Shown here in pieces: positions 3,689 through 44,416 of a DNA stretch of 64,000 nt (its first letter is position 1; each line of letters starts with the position of its first letter). The position numbers and the translations under genes were made by a program. This DNA is from Arcobacter sp. CECT 8983 (lineage in GTDB: Bacteria > Campylobacterota > Campylobacteria > Campylobacterales > Arcobacteraceae): positions 397,604 to 461,603 of the forward strand of contig NZ_PDKF01000004.1 of NCBI RefSeq assembly GCF_004118855.1, in the 5' to 3' direction. The notes under the pieces were generated by a model. It ran no database searches. It was not told the origin of the DNA and saw only the letters and a program-made list of their open reading frames with translations.

Positions 3689-3791
3689 GATTAACTCCTT
3701 TAAAATCAAGTTATGATTATATTTATATTTTCATTATAAAGCTTGTAATATTTTATAAAACAACAAAGTTTTATTTCATTTTACTTTTAAT

Positions 3792-3824
3792 ACTCACTTT
3801 TATCTCACCTGTTTTAGATAAAAT
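3792..3824 (+). promoter_or_regulatory. Operator with 11-bp direct repeats and -10 box for the kinase operon
   Basis: ACTCACTT at 3792-3799 and TCTCACCT at 3803-3810 are direct repeats one helical turn (11 bp) apart. A -10 box TAAAAT follows at 3819-3824, exactly 16 bp from the start of the second repeat. The same arrangement occurs before dctP at 6070-6102. Such repeats are typical binding sites for OmpR/PhoB-type regulators that replace the -35 contact. Confidence 0.65.
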
Positions 3825-3849
3825 AGCATTTTTAATCAGGAGAATTTAA

Positions 3850-5379
3850 TTGTTTAATGAAAAAAATATACCCAAACTTATTATCTTTACGCCTATTATT
3901 ACAGCTATATTAATTGCTTTTTTTACAATATATTTCTTTATAGATAATCAAAACAACTATTTTGAAGAAGAGAGTTTAATTGTTGAAAAAGAGTATTTAC
4001 AAAAACAAAAAAATATTCTAAAAAAAGAGATTGATTATGCAATAAACTATATAAATCATAGAGTTAACAACAACAAATTATTAAGTGAAGAAGAGTTAAA
4101 AAAAGATATTTTGGAATATCTTGAAACTATTAGATATGGAAAACATGGATATCTTTGGATACATGATACAAATTATTATTTAAGAGGGCATCCTTTTAGA
4201 CCAAATAGTATTGACACTTATGACATTGACTTAAAAGATGCAAAGGGCGGTTTTATTACTAAAAAGTTTATAGACGAAACAATTAAAAAGCCAAATGGAG
4301 TTTTTATTGAGTATTATTGGCAAAAGCCAGAGGAAAAAGACTTTTCTAAGAAACTTGGTTTTTTTAAACTATATAAAAAATATAATTGGGTGATAGGAGC
4401 AGGGCTTTATATTGATGATATTCAAGACTCAATAAATGCAAATAAAAAACTTTTAGAAAAGAAGATTAACAAACACATTAGATTAGTTGTAACTGTTTCC
4501 TTTCTAGCGATTTTGATAATTGGTGTTTTATCTTTTATTATGTCAAAAAAGATTACTCAAGTATTTAATGCTTATCAAGAAAATGTAAAAAGAAAAGAGC
4601 TTTTACTAGAAGATTTAAATAGAAATTTGGAGTTAAAAGTTCAAAAGGCTGTTAAAGAAGTTAAGAAAAAAGATAGGGCAATGCTTCATCAATCAAGGCT
4701 AGCAAGAATGGGAGCAATGCTTTCAATGATTGCCCATCAATGGAGACAACCTTTAAGTGAAGTATCTGGAGTACTCATGGAGCTTGAAACTGCAAATAAG
4801 TTTAATAAAGTAACTTCAGAAATGATTGAAGAGACAGTTAAAGAGTCAAATAAACAAATTGCCTTTATGTCAAATACAATTGAAGACTTTAGAAACTTCT
4901 TCAAACCAGATAAATTAAAAGTTGATTTTTATATAGAAAATGCTTGTAATAAAGCTTTAACCTTAGTTGATGCTTCACTTAAAAATTTTAATATAAAAGT
5001 AGAAAAGAAAATAAAATATAACCCTTTAATTCATGGCTATGAAAGAGAATTTGCACAAGTGATTTTAAATCTCTTATCAAATGCAAAGGATGCTTTAATT
5101 CAAAGACAAGTTTCTAATCCTACTATTAAACTTATAGTTACAAAAAAAGATAATAATGCCATTATTAAAGTAAAAGATAATGCAGGGGGAGTGGAAGAGG
5201 ATTATTTAGATTTAATATTTGAGCCGTATTTTACTACAAAAGGTGCATCAAAAGGAACTGGTCTTGGGCTTTATATGGCAAAAATGATTGTTGAAAAAAA
5301 CATGAATGGAGAAATTACTGTAGATAACAAGAAAAAAGGTGCAAACTTTTTAATTGTACTTCCTATAGAAGAGGTTTGA
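3850..5379 (+). CDS. Sensor histidine kinase with periplasmic cache domain
   Basis: 509 residues from a TTG start with CAGGAG upstream; no ATG fits better. Order of parts: TM1 at about 9-31; a periplasmic single-cache sensor at about 40-195 (Y-L-W-I-H-D near 101, W-V-I-G-A-G-L-Y near 180); TM2 at 211-231; a coiled coil; the histidine box I-A-H-Q-W-R-Q-P-L with His296; N-box with N-L-L-S-N-A-K-D-A-L near 407; G boxes D-N-A-G-G (443) and G-T-G-L-G-L-Y (469). It autophosphorylates and passes phosphate to the regulator immediately downstream. Its position suggests it senses a small organic acid, probably the ligand of the TRAP system that follows. It is a paralogue of the kinase at 44417. Confidence 0.88.
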   Translation: MFNEKNIPKLIIFTPIITAILIAFFTIYFFIDNQNNYFEEESLIVEKEYLQKQKNILKKEIDYAINYINHRVNNNKLLSEEELKKDILEYLETIRYGKHGYLWIHDTNYYLRGHPFRPNSIDTYDIDLKDAKGGFITKKFIDETIKKPNGVFIEYYWQKPEEKDFSKKLGFFKLYKKYNWVIGAGLYIDDIQDSINANKKLLEKKINKHIRLVVTVSFLAILIIGVLSFIMSKKITQVFNAYQENVKRKELLLEDLNRNLELKVQKAVKEVKKKDRAMLHQSRLARMGAMLSMIAHQWRQPLSEVSGVLMELETANKFNKVTSEMIEETVKESNKQIAFMSNTIEDFRNFFKPDKLKVDFYIENACNKALTLVDASLKNFNIKVEKKIKYNPLIHGYEREFAQVILNLLSNAKDALIQRQVSNPTIKLIVTKKDNNAIIKVKDNAGGVEEDYLDLIFEPYFTTKGASKGTGLGLYMAKMIVEKNMNGEITVDNKKKGANFLIVLPIEEV

Positions 5380-5381
5380 GT

Positions 5382-6065
5382 ATGGATGAGAGTATAATAA
5401 AACAACTTCAAGAATATACTGTTCTTTGTGTGGAAGATGAAGATGGTATTAGAAAAAGATTAGTAAATACTTTAAAGTACTATTTTGGCGGTGTTTATGA
5501 AGCAAAAGATGGTGAAGATGGTTATTACTTATATAATGAATATAAACCTGATTTAATCATTACAGATATAGAAATGCCTTGTAAAGGAGGGATTTCACTT
5601 GTTGAAGATATTAGAAAAAAAGACAGTGACACCTTAGTAATAATGGTAACTGCTTATTCAACTGAAGAGTATCTTTTAGAGCTTATAAATCTAAATGTAA
5701 ACCAATATATTCTAAAACCTGTAAACTCTGATTCTTTATTGACTGGAATTGTAAAAGCTTTTGGAAAAAGATTAAAAGAAAAAATCTTTTTTCACAAAGA
5801 TTTATATTTTGATGTGCAAGAAAGGGAATTATATTATAAAGATGAGGTAGTTTCATTACGTAAAAGAGATAAAGAGTTCTTACTTTTACTTCATAGAAAT
5901 AGAAATGTAGTTGTAACTTATGAGTTAATTGAAGAGTATTTATGGCGAGATAAGTCTATGAGCATAACAGCTTTAAAAACCTTTATAAAAGAGTTTAGAA
6001 AGCGTATTCCCATTGAAATTATTACAAATAAACCACAAGAAGGGTATAAATTAATCGATTTTTAG
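5382..6065 (+). CDS. OmpR-type response regulator, partner of the cache kinase
   Basis: 227 residues. The ATG at 5382 is preferred: AGAGG lies 7 bp upstream, while an in-frame TTG at 5376 overlaps the kinase stop. The receiver domain has the acidic pocket E-D-E near residues 18-20, phospho-acceptor Asp62 in I-I-T-D-I-E-M-P, and the switch Lys in L-K-P-V near 112. A winged-helix DNA-binding domain fills about 128-227, with Y-E-L-I-E-E-Y-L-W and the ending G-Y-K-L-I-D-F. It is translationally coupled to the kinase. The 11-bp direct repeats before its own operon and before dctP are its likely sites, so it probably autoregulates and activates uptake. Confidence 0.87.
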   Translation: MDESIIKQLQEYTVLCVEDEDGIRKRLVNTLKYYFGGVYEAKDGEDGYYLYNEYKPDLIITDIEMPCKGGISLVEDIRKKDSDTLVIMVTAYSTEEYLLELINLNVNQYILKPVNSDSLLTGIVKAFGKRLKEKIFFHKDLYFDVQERELYYKDEVVSLRKRDKEFLLLLHRNRNVVVTYELIEEYLWRDKSMSITALKTFIKEFRKRIPIEIITNKPQEGYKLIDF

Positions 6066-6069
6066 AAAA

Positions 6070-6102
6070 ACTCACTTGAAACTCACTTAATTGTTTTATG
6101 AT
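6070..6102 (+). promoter_or_regulatory. Operator with 11-bp direct repeats and -10 box before dctP
   Basis: Two perfect ACTCACTT repeats at 6070-6077 and 6081-6088, 11 bp apart. A -10 box TATGAT is at 6097-6102, again 16 bp from the start of the second repeat. This matches the site before the kinase gene in sequence, period and distance to -10, which is good evidence for a shared activator. Confidence 0.7.
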
Positions 6103-6117
6103 GAATTTCATAAACAA

Positions 6118-6157
6118 AGGTTGCCTTTAGAAAATATTGATTTTTAAAGGGGAACCT
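6118..6157 (+). promoter_or_regulatory. Long hairpin in the dctP leader
   Basis: AGGTT (6118-6122) pairs with AACCT (6153-6157), CCTTTA (6124-6129) with TAAAGG (6145-6150), and AAAAT (6131-6135) with ATTTT (6140-6144), around a 4-base loop. With transcription starting near 6109, the hairpin begins about 9 bases from the 5' end and finishes just before the Shine-Dalgarno AAAGGAG (6162-6168). It may stabilise the abundant dctP message or tune its translation. Confidence 0.5.
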
Positions 6158-6173: not shown

Positions 6174-7130
6174 ATGTTCAAAAAAAGTTTACTTTTAGTT
6201 GCTCTTGCAAGTGTTGCATTAGCAGGTAATATTAAAATGGATTTAAATGCAAAATATGGTGCAAATAATTTCCATACAAAAGGTGCTGAAAAGTATGCAC
6301 AATTAGTTAAAGATTACTCAAATGGTTCTGTAGATATTACAGTACATGCAGGATCTGCACTTATTAAAGGAAATCCTCTTAAAGCTGTAAAAGATGGAAC
6401 AGTTGCAATGACTGATATGTTTATTCCTTTTACATCTGGTGGAGGAAAAGTGTTTGGGATTTCTGCTTTACCATTTATTGCTAACTCATATGAAGATGCT
6501 TTCAAGTTATATCAACTTGCAAAACCAGCTTATGATAAAACTGCAAAAAAATGGAATCAAAAAATTCTTTATTCTGTAACTTGGCCAGCTTCTGGTTTTT
6601 ATTCAAAAAAAGAAGTTACAAAACTATCTGATTTTGAAGGTATAAAAACTAGAACTTATGACAAAAACTCTGCTGCATTTATTAATAAAGCAGGTGGAAA
6701 TGCAGTTGCCTTACCTTGGGGAGAAGTTTATTCTTCACTTAGAACGGGTCTTGTTGACTCTGTAGTTACTTCTTCAGCATCTGGAAAAGATGGTAAGTTT
6801 TGGGAAGTATTATCAAACTATACAAAAATCAATTATGCATACCCTTTACAAGCAGTATCAATTAACTTAGATTATTGGAATTCTTTAGATAAAACACAAC
6901 AAAAAGCCATGTTAAAAGCAGCAAAAGAGATTGAAAAAGCTCAATGGGAAGCTGCAAAAGAAGAAGATAGAGTTGCTTTAGAAATGCTTACTAAAAATGG
7001 AATGAAAGTAAGTGAAGCAACATCTGAATTAAAAGCTCAATTAGACAAAATTGCAAATGAGTTATTAGAAGACTATTTAGATGGTGCAAATTCTCAAATC
7101 AAAGCAATTTTTGAAGAATATAGAAAGTAG
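6174..7130 (+). CDS. dctP: TRAP transporter periplasmic substrate-binding protein (DctP type)
   Basis: 318 residues with a clear signal peptide (M-F-K-K-S-L, hydrophobic, A-L-A near residue 17) and a strong Shine-Dalgarno AAAGGAG. The DctP fold is shown by the ligand region G-I-K-T-R-T-Y-D near residue 157 (the conserved Arg binds the carboxylate), G-G-N-A-V-A-L-P-W-G-E-V, and S-L-R-T-G-L-V-D-S-V. It captures an organic anion in the periplasm for the DctQM permease. Because pxpABC follow directly, the ligand is inferred to be 5-oxoproline; a pyroglutamate-binding DctP subfamily is known in Bordetella. Lactam versus dicarboxylate specificity cannot be settled by eye. Confidence 0.9.
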   Translation: MFKKSLLLVALASVALAGNIKMDLNAKYGANNFHTKGAEKYAQLVKDYSNGSVDITVHAGSALIKGNPLKAVKDGTVAMTDMFIPFTSGGGKVFGISALPFIANSYEDAFKLYQLAKPAYDKTAKKWNQKILYSVTWPASGFYSKKEVTKLSDFEGIKTRTYDKNSAAFINKAGGNAVALPWGEVYSSLRTGLVDSVVTSSASGKDGKFWEVLSNYTKINYAYPLQAVSINLDYWNSLDKTQQKAMLKAAKEIEKAQWEAAKEEDRVALEMLTKNGMKVSEATSELKAQLDKIANELLEDYLDGANSQIKAIFEEYRK

Positions 7131-7139
7131 TTAGAAGTT

Positions 7140-7622
7140 ATGAGTTTTATTTCTAACTTTATAGATAAGCTTACCAAATTTGGGGCTTATCTGTCAGCTT
7201 TTATCTTAGTAGCATTGGTTTCATTGATTTTAATTGAAATCTTTATTAGAGCATTTTTTGATATGTCAACAATGATAGCAGATGAATATAGTGGATATTT
7301 TTATTTGGCATCTATATTTTTTGGATTAGCATATACTTTCTCAAGTGATTCTCATATAAGAATTAACATAATTACTTCAAGGTTATCAAAAAAGACTAAT
7401 AACAAGATTGATATTCTTGCAGCAGTTATTACCTTAGCTGTATTAGCTTTTGCTCTTTATAGAACAATTTTATTTACATATGATTCATATGAATTACAGA
7501 TGTTATCAGAAAATGTTTCTGAAACACCACTATATTTAACACAACTTGCAATGCCTATTGGAATTACAATGTTCATGTTAGCTGTAGTATTATTTATTTT
7601 CAAAGGATTTACAAATGATTAG
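7140..7622 (+). CDS. dctQ: TRAP transporter small permease subunit (DctQ type)
   Basis: 160 residues with four hydrophobic segments (about 15-35, 50-66, 90-110 and 133-154), the usual topology of DctQ. The stretch D-E-Y-S-G-Y-F-Y near residue 47 and the S-D-S-H-I-R-I motif near 71 are typical of the family. It forms the membrane complex with DctM and docks DctP. It starts 9 bp after dctP, and its stop overlaps the dctM start by 8 bp, so the three are one transcript. The ribosome site (TAGAAG) is weak, consistent with coupling. Confidence 0.88.
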   Translation: MSFISNFIDKLTKFGAYLSAFILVALVSLILIEIFIRAFFDMSTMIADEYSGYFYLASIFFGLAYTFSSDSHIRINIITSRLSKKTNNKIDILAAVITLAVLAFALYRTILFTYDSYELQMLSENVSETPLYLTQLAMPIGITMFMLAVVLFIFKGFTND

Positions 7623-8949
7623 TGATCCTTTATTCTTATCAGTAATTTTAATTGTGATAATGTTTGTATTTTTATTATCATCATTATGGATTGGTGTTTC
7701 GTTAATGTTAACAGGTATTATTGGTATGTTATTATTTGACCATAATTTACCTCCTGTGATTTCTGTTTATGACAAAATTGGAGACTTATTAGCTTCTTCA
7801 CTTTATGATGCCTTAAACTCTTGGTCTCTTGCAGCTTTACCTATGTTTATTTTAATGGGTGAAATTTTATATAAATCTTCTATTTCAACAAGATTGTTAA
7901 ATGGTTTAAAACCTTGGCTTGCATTTATACCAGGAGGTTTACTTCATGTAAATGTTGCAGCATGTTCTTTATTCGCTGCTGTTTCTGGTTCATCTGCTGC
8001 TACAACTGCAACAGTTGGGAAGATTACATTAGAAGAGTTAAAAAATAGAGGATACTCTAAAACATTAGCAATGGGATCACTAGCTGGTTCTGGTACATTA
8101 GGATATTTAATTCCTCCTTCTTTAATTATGATTATTTATGGAGTGTTATCAGATGTATCTATTGGTAAATTATTTGTTGCTGGGCTAATTCCTGGGCTTT
8201 TACTGGCATCTTTATACTCTTTTTATATCATGTATAAAGCCAAAGTTGACCCAAGTATTTTACCAAAAGAAAAAGAAGTATTTACATTTAAAGATAGAAT
8301 AAACTCATTTAAAGATTTAGCACCAATTTTTTCACTTATTGGACTTGTTTTAGGTTCTATTTATGGTGGATTTTCTACTCCTACTGAAGCTGCTGCTCTT
8401 GGAGTATTAGGAAGCTTGATTCTTGCATTTTATTTTAAATCTATCTCAATAGATATTCTAAAAAATGCACTTTTAAACTCTGTTAAAACATCTGTTATGA
8501 TTGGGTTTATTATTGCTGGTGCAGTTTTTCTTTCTCAAGTAATTGGATTTTTGGGAATTGCAAGAGCAATGAGTGAATTTATTGCAGGTCTTGGACTTTC
8601 TCCAATGATGTTAATTTTGTTAATTGGTATTATGTATATTATTTTAGGAATGATTTTAGAAGCTATTTCTATTGTAGTTATGACATTGCCAATTGTTTTA
8701 CCAATCATTATTTTAGCTGGATTTGATCCACTATGGTTTGGTATTTTCTTAGTATTCATGGTTGAAATGGCACAAATTACGCCGCCAGTTGGTTTCTCAC
8801 TATTTGTGATTCAAGGAATTAGTAATGAAAAAATACAGACAATTTTAAAAGCAACTTTTCCCTTCTTTATTCTTATGATTGTTACTGTTGTATTAATTAC
8901 TGTGTTTCCTGAAATAGTATTCTTCTTACCAGACCAAATGATTAAATAA
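7615..8949 (+). CDS. dctM: TRAP transporter large permease subunit (DctM type)
   Basis: 444 residues, almost wholly hydrophobic, with about twelve membrane segments. Family motifs include S-W-S-L-A-A-L-P-M-F-I-L-M-G-E near residue 70, G-S-S-A-A-T-T-A-T-V-G near 122, L-I-P-P-S near 164, and T-P-T-E-A-A-A-L-G-V near 256. DctM carries the Na+-coupled translocation pathway. Length and motifs are complete and no frameshift is seen. It is followed after 42 bp by pxpA, so import and degradation genes are linked. Confidence 0.9.
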   Translation: MISDPLFLSVILIVIMFVFLLSSLWIGVSLMLTGIIGMLLFDHNLPPVISVYDKIGDLLASSLYDALNSWSLAALPMFILMGEILYKSSISTRLLNGLKPWLAFIPGGLLHVNVAACSLFAAVSGSSAATTATVGKITLEELKNRGYSKTLAMGSLAGSGTLGYLIPPSLIMIIYGVLSDVSIGKLFVAGLIPGLLLASLYSFYIMYKAKVDPSILPKEKEVFTFKDRINSFKDLAPIFSLIGLVLGSIYGGFSTPTEAAALGVLGSLILAFYFKSISIDILKNALLNSVKTSVMIGFIIAGAVFLSQVIGFLGIARAMSEFIAGLGLSPMMLILLIGIMYIILGMILEAISIVVMTLPIVLPIIILAGFDPLWFGIFLVFMVEMAQITPPVGFSLFVIQGISNEKIQTILKATFPFFILMIVTVVLITVFPEIVFFLPDQMIK

Positions 8950-8991
8950 TATTTTTGGTAAAATAAGGTTATATAAATGGAAGGTAATGAA

Positions 8992-9723
8992 ATGATTAGA
9001 TTAAATTGTGATATGGGGGAAAGCTTCGGTATTTGGAAAATGGGTGCAGATGAACAAATTATGCCTTATATTAGTATGGCAAATTTAGCGTGTGGTTTCC
9101 ATGCAAGTGATCCTTTAACAATGAATCGTTCTGTTGAATTAGCAAAAAGATATAATGTAACTATTGGTGCTCATCCTGGATATCAGGATTTAGTTGGCTT
9201 TGGTAGAAGAAGCATTCAATGTACTTTAGAAGAGATTAAGTCAATAACTCTTTATCAACTAGGTGCATTAAGTGCCTTTTGCAAATCTCATGGTACAACT
9301 GTATCTTATGTAAAACCCCATGGTGCTTTATATAATGATATGATGCGAGATGAAAATATATTCAAAGCAATTTTAAGTGCTATTTCATCTTATGATAAAA
9401 ATATTAAACTAATGATTTTATCAAATCCAAATAATGAAGCATTTTCCTATACTGCAAAAATGTATGGAATTAATCTAATCTATGAAGTATTTGCAGACAG
9501 AAATTATAATGACAATGGAAGTTTAGTATCAAGAATGCAACCAAACGCTATAATTCATGATGAATTATTAGTTATTGAAAGAATTCAAAATTTAAAAGAT
9601 AGAGGATTTTTAGAAAGTGTAAATGGTCAAAGGCTATTTTTAAAAGCTGATACTGTTTGTGTTCATGGAGATGGTGCAAATGCACTTAATTTTATTCAAG
9701 CTTTACAAAAAGTAGTAAACTAA
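8992..9723 (+). CDS. pxpA: 5-oxoprolinase subunit A (LamB/YcsF family)
   Basis: 243 residues from the ATG at 8992. It has GGAAGG upstream and gives the family N-terminus (M-I-R-L-N-C-D-M-G-E-S-F-G); an in-frame ATG at 8977 would add five residues. Diagnostic motifs are A-N-L-A-C-G-F-H-A-S-D-P near residue 34, I-G-A-H-P-G-Y-Q-D near 60, V-K-P-H-G-A-L-Y-N near 106 and V-C-V-H-G-D near 225. With PxpB and PxpC it forms the prokaryotic ATP-dependent 5-oxoprolinase that opens 5-oxoproline to glutamate. PxpA is thought to carry out the ring-opening step. Confidence 0.93.
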   Translation: MIRLNCDMGESFGIWKMGADEQIMPYISMANLACGFHASDPLTMNRSVELAKRYNVTIGAHPGYQDLVGFGRRSIQCTLEEIKSITLYQLGALSAFCKSHGTTVSYVKPHGALYNDMMRDENIFKAILSAISSYDKNIKLMILSNPNNEAFSYTAKMYGINLIYEVFADRNYNDNGSLVSRMQPNAIIHDELLVIERIQNLKDRGFLESVNGQRLFLKADTVCVHGDGANALNFIQALQKVVN

Positions 9724-10401
9724 ATGGAAATAAAAGTAGCTTCTGTTGATTGTGTAATTATTTATTTTGATACTAAAATCTCTAAAGAAATATCAAATAA
9801 AGTAAAAGCTTCATATGCTTATTTAAAGTCTTTAAATAATGAAGCTTTTATTGATATAATCCCTTCTTATAGCTCAATTTTAATTTCATATGATGTATTA
9901 AAATATGATTTTGAATCTATAAAAGCATATCTAGAAGAAAGGCTTAAAAATATAAAAGTAGATGAAGAAGAAAACTCTAAGCTTGTAGAAATAGATGTAT
10001 ATTATGGTGAAGAAGTAGGGCTTGATTTACAAAGGGTTGCTTCTATAAATAACTTAAATGTAGAAGAGGTAATAAATCTTCATTCTTCTAAAGTTTATGA
10101 TGTTTATACAATTGGTTTTTTGCCTGGTTTTGCATATTTAGGTGTAGTTGATGAAAAAATTGCAACTAAAAGATTAGAAACTCCTAGAAAGAAAATTCCT
10201 AAAGGAAGTGTTTCCCTTGCTGATACTCAAACTGCTGTTTATCCAAAAGATAGCCCAGGTGGTTGGAATATTATTGGGAAAACTGCTTTTGAGTTTTTTG
10301 ATAAAAATTTAGAACAATTATCGCAAATAGATATTAATACAAAAATAAAATTTAATCCAATTTCTAAAGAAGAATTTTTAAAACAAGGTGGAACTTTATG
10401 A
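9724..10401 (+). CDS. pxpB: 5-oxoprolinase subunit B (KipI/allophanate hydrolase subunit 1 family)
   Basis: 225 residues, starting immediately after the pxpA stop. The hallmark is G-F-L-P-G-F-A-Y-L-G near residue 136, followed by R-L-E-T-P-R-K-K-I-P-K-G-S-V and S-P-G-G-W-N-I-I-G-K-T near 178. With PxpC it makes the ATP-using half of the 5-oxoprolinase. In Bacillus the homologue KipI inhibits the sporulation kinase KinA, but here the gene context is metabolic. It overlaps pxpC by 4 bp (ATGA), so the two are translationally coupled. Confidence 0.93.
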   Translation: MEIKVASVDCVIIYFDTKISKEISNKVKASYAYLKSLNNEAFIDIIPSYSSILISYDVLKYDFESIKAYLEERLKNIKVDEEENSKLVEIDVYYGEEVGLDLQRVASINNLNVEEVINLHSSKVYDVYTIGFLPGFAYLGVVDEKIATKRLETPRKKIPKGSVSLADTQTAVYPKDSPGGWNIIGKTAFEFFDKNLEQLSQIDINTKIKFNPISKEEFLKQGGTL

Positions 10402-11315
10402 AAGGCTTTGAATTAGTAAAAGCTGGGATTTATACAACTATTCAAGATAAAGGAAGATTCTCTTTCATGCATCTTGGTGTTACAAATTCAGGGTTTATGG
10501 ATGAGTATGCTGCTAATGCTTGTAATAAACTTTTAGATAACAATCTTGAGACAAATCTTCTTGAAATCCTTTTTGCTGGTGTAGTATTAAAATCACATCA
10601 GAATACTACTATTGCAATAACAGGTGCTAAATGTGACTTTTACATTAATGGTGTTTTAAAAAACTGTTGGGAAACTCATAAAGTAAGAGTAGGGGATGAA
10701 ATTAAAATTGGTAAATTCAATGAAGGTCAAAGAGTTTACTTAGGTGTAAAAAATGGCTTTGATATTGAAAAAGAGTTTGGAAGTAATGCTACTTCTATGA
10801 AAGAAGGCTTTGGTGGTCTTGATGGAAATAAACTAAAAAATAGTGATATTTTAGCGTTTGAAGAAAATTCATCTTTTGTAAAAAGAAGATGGAAAGAAAA
10901 GTTTGTTCCTAAATATAAAAAAGAGTTAACACTAAGAGTGATACTTTCATATCAATGTGATAAGTTTGAAGAAGAACAAATAGAAAAGTTCTTCTCAAGT
11001 GTTTATACAATTACTCCTGATTTTAACTCTATGGCTTGTAAACTTGATGGAGAGGCTATTGAATGTACTATTTCAAATCTAGTTTCTGAAGCAATTGCCT
11101 TTGGTAGTATTCAAATACCAAAAGATGGAAAACCAATAATTCTTTTAAAAGAGAGACAAACTATTGGTGGTTATCCAAAGATTGGTGCAGTTTTAAATAT
11201 TGATTGTTATAAATTAGCTCAAATGAAACCTGGAAGTAAAATAAGATTTGAAAAAATTGAAATTAAAAAAGCAAGAGAAAAAGTTTTAAAATTTTTAGAG
11301 GCTTTTTCTTCTTAA
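10398..11315 (+). CDS. pxpC: 5-oxoprolinase subunit C (KipA/biotin-dependent carboxyltransferase-like)
   Basis: 305 residues with the family N-terminus (G-I-Y-T-T-I-Q-D-K-G-R near residue 10), N-x-x-E-x-N-L-L-E-I-L near 50, I-A-I-T-G-A-K-C near 76, and the C-terminal I-L-L-K-E-R-Q-T-I-G-G-Y-P-K-I-G near 250. It completes the PxpABC enzyme and ends the operon. Its TAA stop shares bases with the stop of the convergent GGDEF-like gene (11312-11315), so there is no room for a conventional terminator. Confidence 0.92.
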   Translation: MKGFELVKAGIYTTIQDKGRFSFMHLGVTNSGFMDEYAANACNKLLDNNLETNLLEILFAGVVLKSHQNTTIAITGAKCDFYINGVLKNCWETHKVRVGDEIKIGKFNEGQRVYLGVKNGFDIEKEFGSNATSMKEGFGGLDGNKLKNSDILAFEENSSFVKRRWKEKFVPKYKKELTLRVILSYQCDKFEEEQIEKFFSSVYTITPDFNSMACKLDGEAIECTISNLVSEAIAFGSIQIPKDGKPIILLKERQTIGGYPKIGAVLNIDCYKLAQMKPGSKIRFEKIEIKKAREKVLKFLEAFSS

Positions 11316-43673: not shown

Positions 43674-44354
43674 TTATAAAACTAATCTGTATCCTGTACC
43701 TTGTACATTTTTAAGTGCATCTGCTGGAAGTTTTTTTCTAAAGTTTTTTATAAATAATCTCATGGCATTTGGTGTCATTATATCTTCATTCCAAATAATG
43801 TTTTCCATCTCTTCATAAGTGATTATTCTATTTTTTTGAATTAAAAGTTTTAAAAACTGATTCTCTTTTTTTGTTAGTTTAAACTCTTCATCTGGTGATT
43901 GAATAATTGATTTACTTTCATCAAATAGCCAACCTTCTGAAAGATTGTAAACTCTCGCACTATCAAAACTTTTTACGAAAGCTTCTAAGGCTTCAATTAG
44001 TTTTACTTCAGTAAGTGGTTTAATAATATATTTAACAAGATGAAGTTCAGTAGCTTCAAGCATATATTCTAAATCTGTATGAGCTGAAGTTATGATTACT
44101 CTTACTTTGCTATCAACTTTTCTAATTCTTTTAATTAGTTCTATTCCAGTTTCATTAGGCATTTTTATATCTGTAATGATTAAATCAGGTTTATTTTGTT
44201 CATATAAGCTATAGCCTTCTTTTGCATTTTTAGCTACATAAGTCTCTTTAAATAAGTCCTTTAATACCTCAGTAATATTCTTTCTAATACCTTCTTCATC
44301 TTCAATATATAAAATAGTGAAGTTTTTCAAGTTTGAAATTAGTGATTTGTCCAT
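43674..44354 (-). CDS. OmpR-type response regulator
   Basis: 226 residues. The receiver domain has E-D-E-E near residues 18-21, phospho-acceptor Asp in I-I-T-D-I-K-M-P near 62, T-S-A near 88 and I-K-P near 112. A winged-helix effector domain covers about 128-226 (Y-E-E-M-E-N-I-I-W, ending G-T-G-Y-R-L-V-L). It is a paralogue of the regulator at 5382, and its divergent neighbour at 44417 is a paralogue of that regulator's kinase. The two divergent genes therefore form a second copy of the same signalling system. AGGGG precedes the ATG. Confidence 0.87.
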   Translation of the reverse strand: MDKSLISNLKNFTILYIEDEEGIRKNITEVLKDLFKETYVAKNAKEGYSLYEQNKPDLIITDIKMPNETGIELIKRIRKVDSKVRVIITSAHTDLEYMLEATELHLVKYIIKPLTEVKLIEALEAFVKSFDSARVYNLSEGWLFDESKSIIQSPDEEFKLTKKENQFLKLLIQKNRIITYEEMENIIWNEDIMTPNAMRLFIKNFRKKLPADALKNVQGTGYRLVL

Positions 44355-44416
44355 ACCAAAAACCCCTATTATTAAAAGTATGGTATCATATCGAAAATAG
44401 CATTAGGGTTTAGAAT

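Follow-up and report, generated by a model that had tools for sequence, protein, structure and literature searches.

Genes at the Locus

The window analyzed here, a stretch of 64,000 nucleotides (C4:397604-461603) from Arcobacter sp. CECT 8983, contains near its start a sensor kinase gene and a response regulator gene (hk-rr), followed on the same strand by a TRAP transporter and the three 5-oxoprolinase subunits (dctPQM-pxpABC). The genes and promoter elements are listed in Table 1.

Table 1. Genes, operators and -10 boxes of the hk-rr and dctPQM-pxpABC operons.
Feature	Position	Strand	Remarks
hk-rr operator, half-sites ACTCACTT (3792-3799) and TCTCACCT (3803-3810)	3792..3810	+	11-bp period
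hk-rr promoter -10 box TAAAAT	3819..3824	+	16 bp from second half-site start (3803)
Sensor histidine kinase	3850..5379	+	TTG start; periplasmic sCache_2; HATPase_c; HisKA match weak, below cut-off
OmpR/PhoB-type response regulator	5376..6065	+	receiver and Trans_reg_C winged helix; ORF from TTG 5376, in-frame ATG 5382
dctPQM-pxpABC operator, half-sites ACTCACTT (6070-6077) and ACTCACTT (6081-6088)	6070..6088	+	11-bp period
dctP promoter -10 box TATGAT	6097..6102	+	16 bp from second half-site start (6081)
dctP, TRAP solute-binding protein	6174..7130	+	closest solved relative 2pfz
dctQ, TRAP small membrane subunit	7140..7622	+	DctQ match
dctM, TRAP large membrane subunit	7615..8949	+	DctM match
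pxpA, 5-oxoprolinase subunit	8977..9723	+	LamB/YcsF family (LamB_YcsF)
pxpB, 5-oxoprolinase subunit	9724..10401	+	CT_C_D
pxpC, 5-oxoprolinase subunit	10398..11315	+	CT_A_B

A preliminary description of this DNA had placed an OmpR-type regulator gene between two similar promoter repeats, and domain searches bear this out. The N-terminal receiver is matched by Response_reg (E = 1.9e-23), and its phosphorylatable aspartate, D64 in a DIxMP motif, is invariant in 14 regulator orthologues. The Trans_reg_C match of the window regulator alone scores 25.7 bits, below the cut-off of 26.2, but the domain is matched by all 14 of the orthologues scanned (best E = 1.4e-11); an alignment with DrrD (1kgs) covers both domains. 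The nearest named record, from a Campylobacteraceae MAG, shows 96% identity in the regulator. Elsewhere in the window, at 43680-44357 on the minus strand, lies a paralogue of the regulator (39% identical) that is divergent from its own kinase, and no CTCAC tandem is recognizable between these two genes.

The TRAP carrier and pxpA, pxpB and pxpC form one gene cluster. The closest relatives of DctP in the PDB are 2pfz and 2pfy, two DctP proteins of Bordetella with pyroglutamate (5-oxoproline) as their ligand, and the protein is by this relationship a pyroglutamate-type DctP, with 5-oxoproline as its putative substrate. The closest solved relatives of the Cache domain of the kinase are chemoreceptor Cache domains, which do not single out a ligand for it.

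Architecture of the Two Promoters

The direct repeats with an 11-bp period can be read directly from the sequence at both promoters, as had been described, and so can the -10 box, which in each case begins exactly 16 bp downstream of the first base of the second repeat. The description of the two architectures as identical needs qualification, as the period, the spacing and the core CTCAC-N6-CTCAC are common to both but the second repeat of the kinase promoter matches at only six of eight bases. With the -10 hexamer set as -12 to -7, the half-sites extend from about -39 to -32 and from -28 to -21, which is the location of the -35 box, and under neither operator is there a recognizable -35 hexamer. 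Both promoters thus have the form of class II (PhoB-like) promoters, in which the regulator site replaces the -35 box at a fixed distance from the -10 box. A possible third unit of the kinase promoter, TTACTTTT at position 3781, upstream, was dropped because the nearest relative does not conserve it.

The dctP leader also contains a stem-loop, AGGTTGCCTTTA ... TAAAGGGGAACCT at 6118-6157, between the -10 box and the ribosome site. It is shared with the 96%-identical relative (L061), but the next relatives, with a leader shorter by about 42 bp, do not have it, and a search across the genome found no second copy.

Occurrence of the Motif

The shared pair of operators had been judged unlikely to arise by chance, and this is upheld by pattern searches of the 2.74-Mb genome, in which CTCACYT-N4-CTCACYT has exact matches at these two sites only. 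Among the 5-mers of the window, CTCAC alone forms two 11-bp tandems that are followed by TAnnnT at +16, and in none of 200 first-order Markov simulations did any G/C-rich 5-mer (three or more G or C) form such a tandem twice. In the 104 family genomes, ACTCAC-N5-WCTCAC is matched 80 times and the reversed pattern 17 times. Of the 80 matches, 51 precede either dctP or the sensor kinase gene found at this locus. The motif is therefore not scattered at random, as its exact sites in the genome number two and its matches in the family are concentrated at this locus.

A wider regulon was sought genome-wide with the half-sites plus the -10 box and two mismatches allowed, and the 27 matches compare with 23 for the control, so that nothing stands out beyond the two operators and the site of an aspA-linked paralogue described below, and our proposal rests on the well-matched sites. 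Elsewhere in the genome the first pattern has a single site with one mismatch (L003, C4:109505), which has no correctly oriented gene downstream and was judged to be a chance match.

Conservation Across Arcobacteraceae

A dctP gene of this type is present in 39 of the 104 family genomes. The regulator accompanies it in 35 of them, representing nine genera, and the repeat precedes dctP in all 35; the remaining four belong to genus g6. The system also occurs in Malaciobacter halophilus DSM 18005 (L191). The spacing is equally constant, as all 33 aligned dctP promoters have TAnnnT at exactly +16 (a script placed it in 32, and L083, which had been registered on an upstream half-site, fits by eye), and so do all 22 of the kinase promoters that have the repeat, out of 24, although all of these sites are related by descent and are not independent trials. 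At any other offset from 10 to 22 the count of TAnnnT is five or fewer. In the 33 dctP promoters nearly every column of the core half-sites shows 91-100% conservation, in contrast to the freely varying spacer and flanks. The operator consensus is AAACTCACY-N4-ACTCACTT. Random scatter over the genome and a lack of conservation before orthologous genes had both been named as grounds for refuting the original proposal, and neither is seen, as the motif is kept at its exact spacing before these genes. In both the 33 dctP and the 22 kinase promoters the half-sites are arranged head to tail, about one turn of the helix (11 bp) apart.

The two kinase promoters that lack the repeat (L089 and L090) are both from genus g7, which means that the proposed autoregulation does not extend to every genus. 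The kinase and the regulator of genus g15 are split by an oppositely oriented MCP-like gene (L078, L083, L195), and despite the intervening gene the kinase promoters (L194, L195, L196) retain the tandem at +16; none was found upstream of the regulator itself in this genus. The sensor domain of the kinase is longer in genus g15 and in family f20, and since sensor domains vary in size between genera it cannot be assumed that one signal is conserved among them.

Genomes without the regulator provide a complementary view. The four g6 genomes have both dctP and pxpA and only distant matches to the regulator (E values of 1e-12 to 1e-18), and the repeat pattern occurs nowhere in these genomes; in the three whose dctP leaders were inspected, the leaders also contain no repeat. 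Similarly, in two genomes of family f15 dctP is present with neither the regulator nor a CTCAC-type repeat in the stretch examined. The g6 genomes count as one event, and the joint absence as a whole represents one or a few events.

Paralogous Regulators and Their Half-Sites

A second clade of regulators precedes an aspA-like gene (aspartate ammonia-lyase, an identity read by eye from the protein), and the member of this clade in the present genome (C4:362977-363645) is 48% identical to the window regulator. The half-sites of the aspA clade are approximately CACACTT/CATACTT, again with an 11-bp period and with TAnnnT at +16 in 18 of 19 cases; the site in this genome, where the regulator is paired with a paralogous kinase (L101, C4:360500-365500), is the tandem CACACTT/CTTACTT with the -10 box at +16. 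The recognition helix reads MTxHALKSFIK in the aspA clade versus MSxSALKTFIK in the 5-oxoproline clade. The two clades are separate in the regulator tree and the half-sites follow the clades. Families f20 and f10 have orthologous dctP genes (67-73% identical) that are preceded by tandems of drifted half-sites, CCCCAC, CCTCAC or TCTCAC, with TAnnnT at +16, the spacing being read directly from the sequences; two of these sites, L208 and L209, match weakly. The assignment of the intervening regulator to both operators, as originally suggested, is thus reinforced in two ways, as motif and regulator are jointly absent and the half-site follows the recognition helix among the paralogues.

Proposed Mechanism and Alternatives

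We consider it highly probable that the phosphorylated regulator binds both tandem operators and activates both hk-rr and dctPQM-pxpABC. On comparative sequence grounds, control of the two operators by the regulator encoded between them is strongly supported as a prediction, and we infer the physical binding, the phosphorylation, activation over repression, and a signal that is 5-oxoproline or a metabolite related to it; 5-oxoproline itself is a plausible kinase signal given the content of the operon. The Cache-domain kinase would phosphorylate the OmpR/PhoB-type regulator, and the regulator would then occupy two half-sites, one helical turn apart, as a head-to-tail dimer. Since the half-sites sit at the location of the -35 box, the bound regulator would take the place of that box and recruit RNA polymerase in a class II, PhoB-like manner. 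Activation of hk-rr would constitute a positive feedback, and activation of dctPQM-pxpABC would lead to the uptake and hydrolysis of 5-oxoproline.

The same regulator bound at the same sites might instead repress both promoters over the -35 region, with the signal either relieving or imposing the repression. The position of the operator would suit a repressor too, and in Campylobacter jejuni, of the same phylum, the two-component regulator RacR, which acts at aspA as is proposed for the aspA-linked paralogue here, represses that gene when active (PMC4456614; PMC6682613), so that the sign of the regulation cannot be read from the position of the site alone. On the other hand, there is no recognizable -35 hexamer left beneath the operator, and the distance to the -10 box is invariant to the base pair, which is expected of a protein that contacts the polymerase, whereas a repressor would tolerate variation; promoters activated by PhoB are likewise reported to keep the box at a strict distance from the core promoter (PMC10294691). 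Repression is hence improbable in our view.

It is less probable still, and indeed very unlikely, that the repeats are bound by a different transcription factor, such as a global regulator or some other OmpR paralogue, while the regulator studied here acts elsewhere. The genome does encode many response regulators, as a search with this one gives 73 matches, of which not all are DNA-binding. However, the motif accompanies this regulator across genera and is missing where it is missing (g6), the half-site changes where the recognition helix of the adjacent regulator has changed, and a global factor would be expected to have many sites and not two exact ones. Finally, a functionless resemblance of the two promoters through chance or common descent, for which an AT-rich genome, a short motif and the background frequency of two-mismatch sites might speak, can be practically dismissed given a core that is kept over nine genera while its flanks decay, the exact +16 spacing, and simulations that never reproduced the pair.

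Relation to Known Systems

Several known systems share features with the one proposed here. The E. coli pho box has an 11-bp period. PhoB is likewise an OmpR/PhoB-type regulator with two tandem half-sites that replace the -35 box, and in PhoB-activated promoters a direct repeat is strictly spaced relative to the core promoter (PMC10294691). The differences lie in the half-site, which is CTGTCA there versus CTCAC here, and in the sensor (a Cache domain here), the targets and the presumed signal. Within the same phylum, the operator of DccR is WTTCAC-N6-TTCACW across the -35 region, likewise with an 11-bp period and with a similar half-site, a comparison that serves as a lead only. DccR, from the DccRS system of C. 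jejuni, is OmpR-like and activates its targets (PMC9449129), although these differ from hk-rr and dctPQM-pxpABC. PceP (RR2) of Sulfurospirillum is another OmpR-type regulator in Campylobacterota that has a direct repeat overlapping the -35 region, but its consensus, CTATW-N17-CTATW (PMC7755780), places the starts of the bound repeats 22 bp apart and not 11 bp. The uptake of 5-oxoproline and its hydrolysis by PxpABC are governed in Corynebacterium glutamicum by PxpR, which is not part of a two-component system and is instead a GntR-type cytoplasmic repressor that binds 5-oxoproline directly (PMC13274462).

A literature search that covered few subscription papers found no description of this operator or system and nothing specific on the system in Arcobacter. 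The parts are known in kind, namely an OmpR/PhoB-type regulator and a tandem operator over the -35 region, and no new mechanism is involved. What is new is a regulon for an uncharacterized pair together with a series of paralogues whose recognition helices and half-sites vary in step while the geometry stays constant, and this series offers natural data, ready for use, on the DNA-specificity code of OmpR-type regulators. According to the A. butzleri genome paper most two-component systems in this group could not be assigned a function (PMC2147049), and one of them can now be given a probable target set and operator. The regulation of bacterial 5-oxoproline metabolism was itself described as unstudied prior to the 2026 report of the GntR-type repressor (PMC13274462).

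A broader reading, to which we give an even chance, is that paralogous Cache-kinase/OmpR pairs throughout the Campylobacterota share one rigid promoter grammar (11-bp tandem, -10 box at +16) and diverge mainly in the recognition helix and half-site, giving insulated regulons that could be read from sequence. The half-sites would be CTCAC for 5-oxoproline uptake, CAYACTT for aspA and CCCAC for another family, with further copies before peptide-type transporters. If this holds, control of 5-oxoproline use by a two-component system would be known for the first time, from the pair in the window.

ACTCAC-type tandems with the -10 box at +16 also precede solute-binding proteins that by appearance belong to peptide-type ABC transporters, in genera g7 and g18 (L156, L161, L162, L163, L164, L186). 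Another paralogous kinase-regulator pair lies near such sites in at least two genomes, and the site in genome G041 has three tandem units. In genome G032 a second copy of pxpA (L182, G032:C1:1265800-1269800) is divergent from yet another paralogous kinase-regulator pair and has ACTCAC-N5-TCACAC with TAGAAT at +16.
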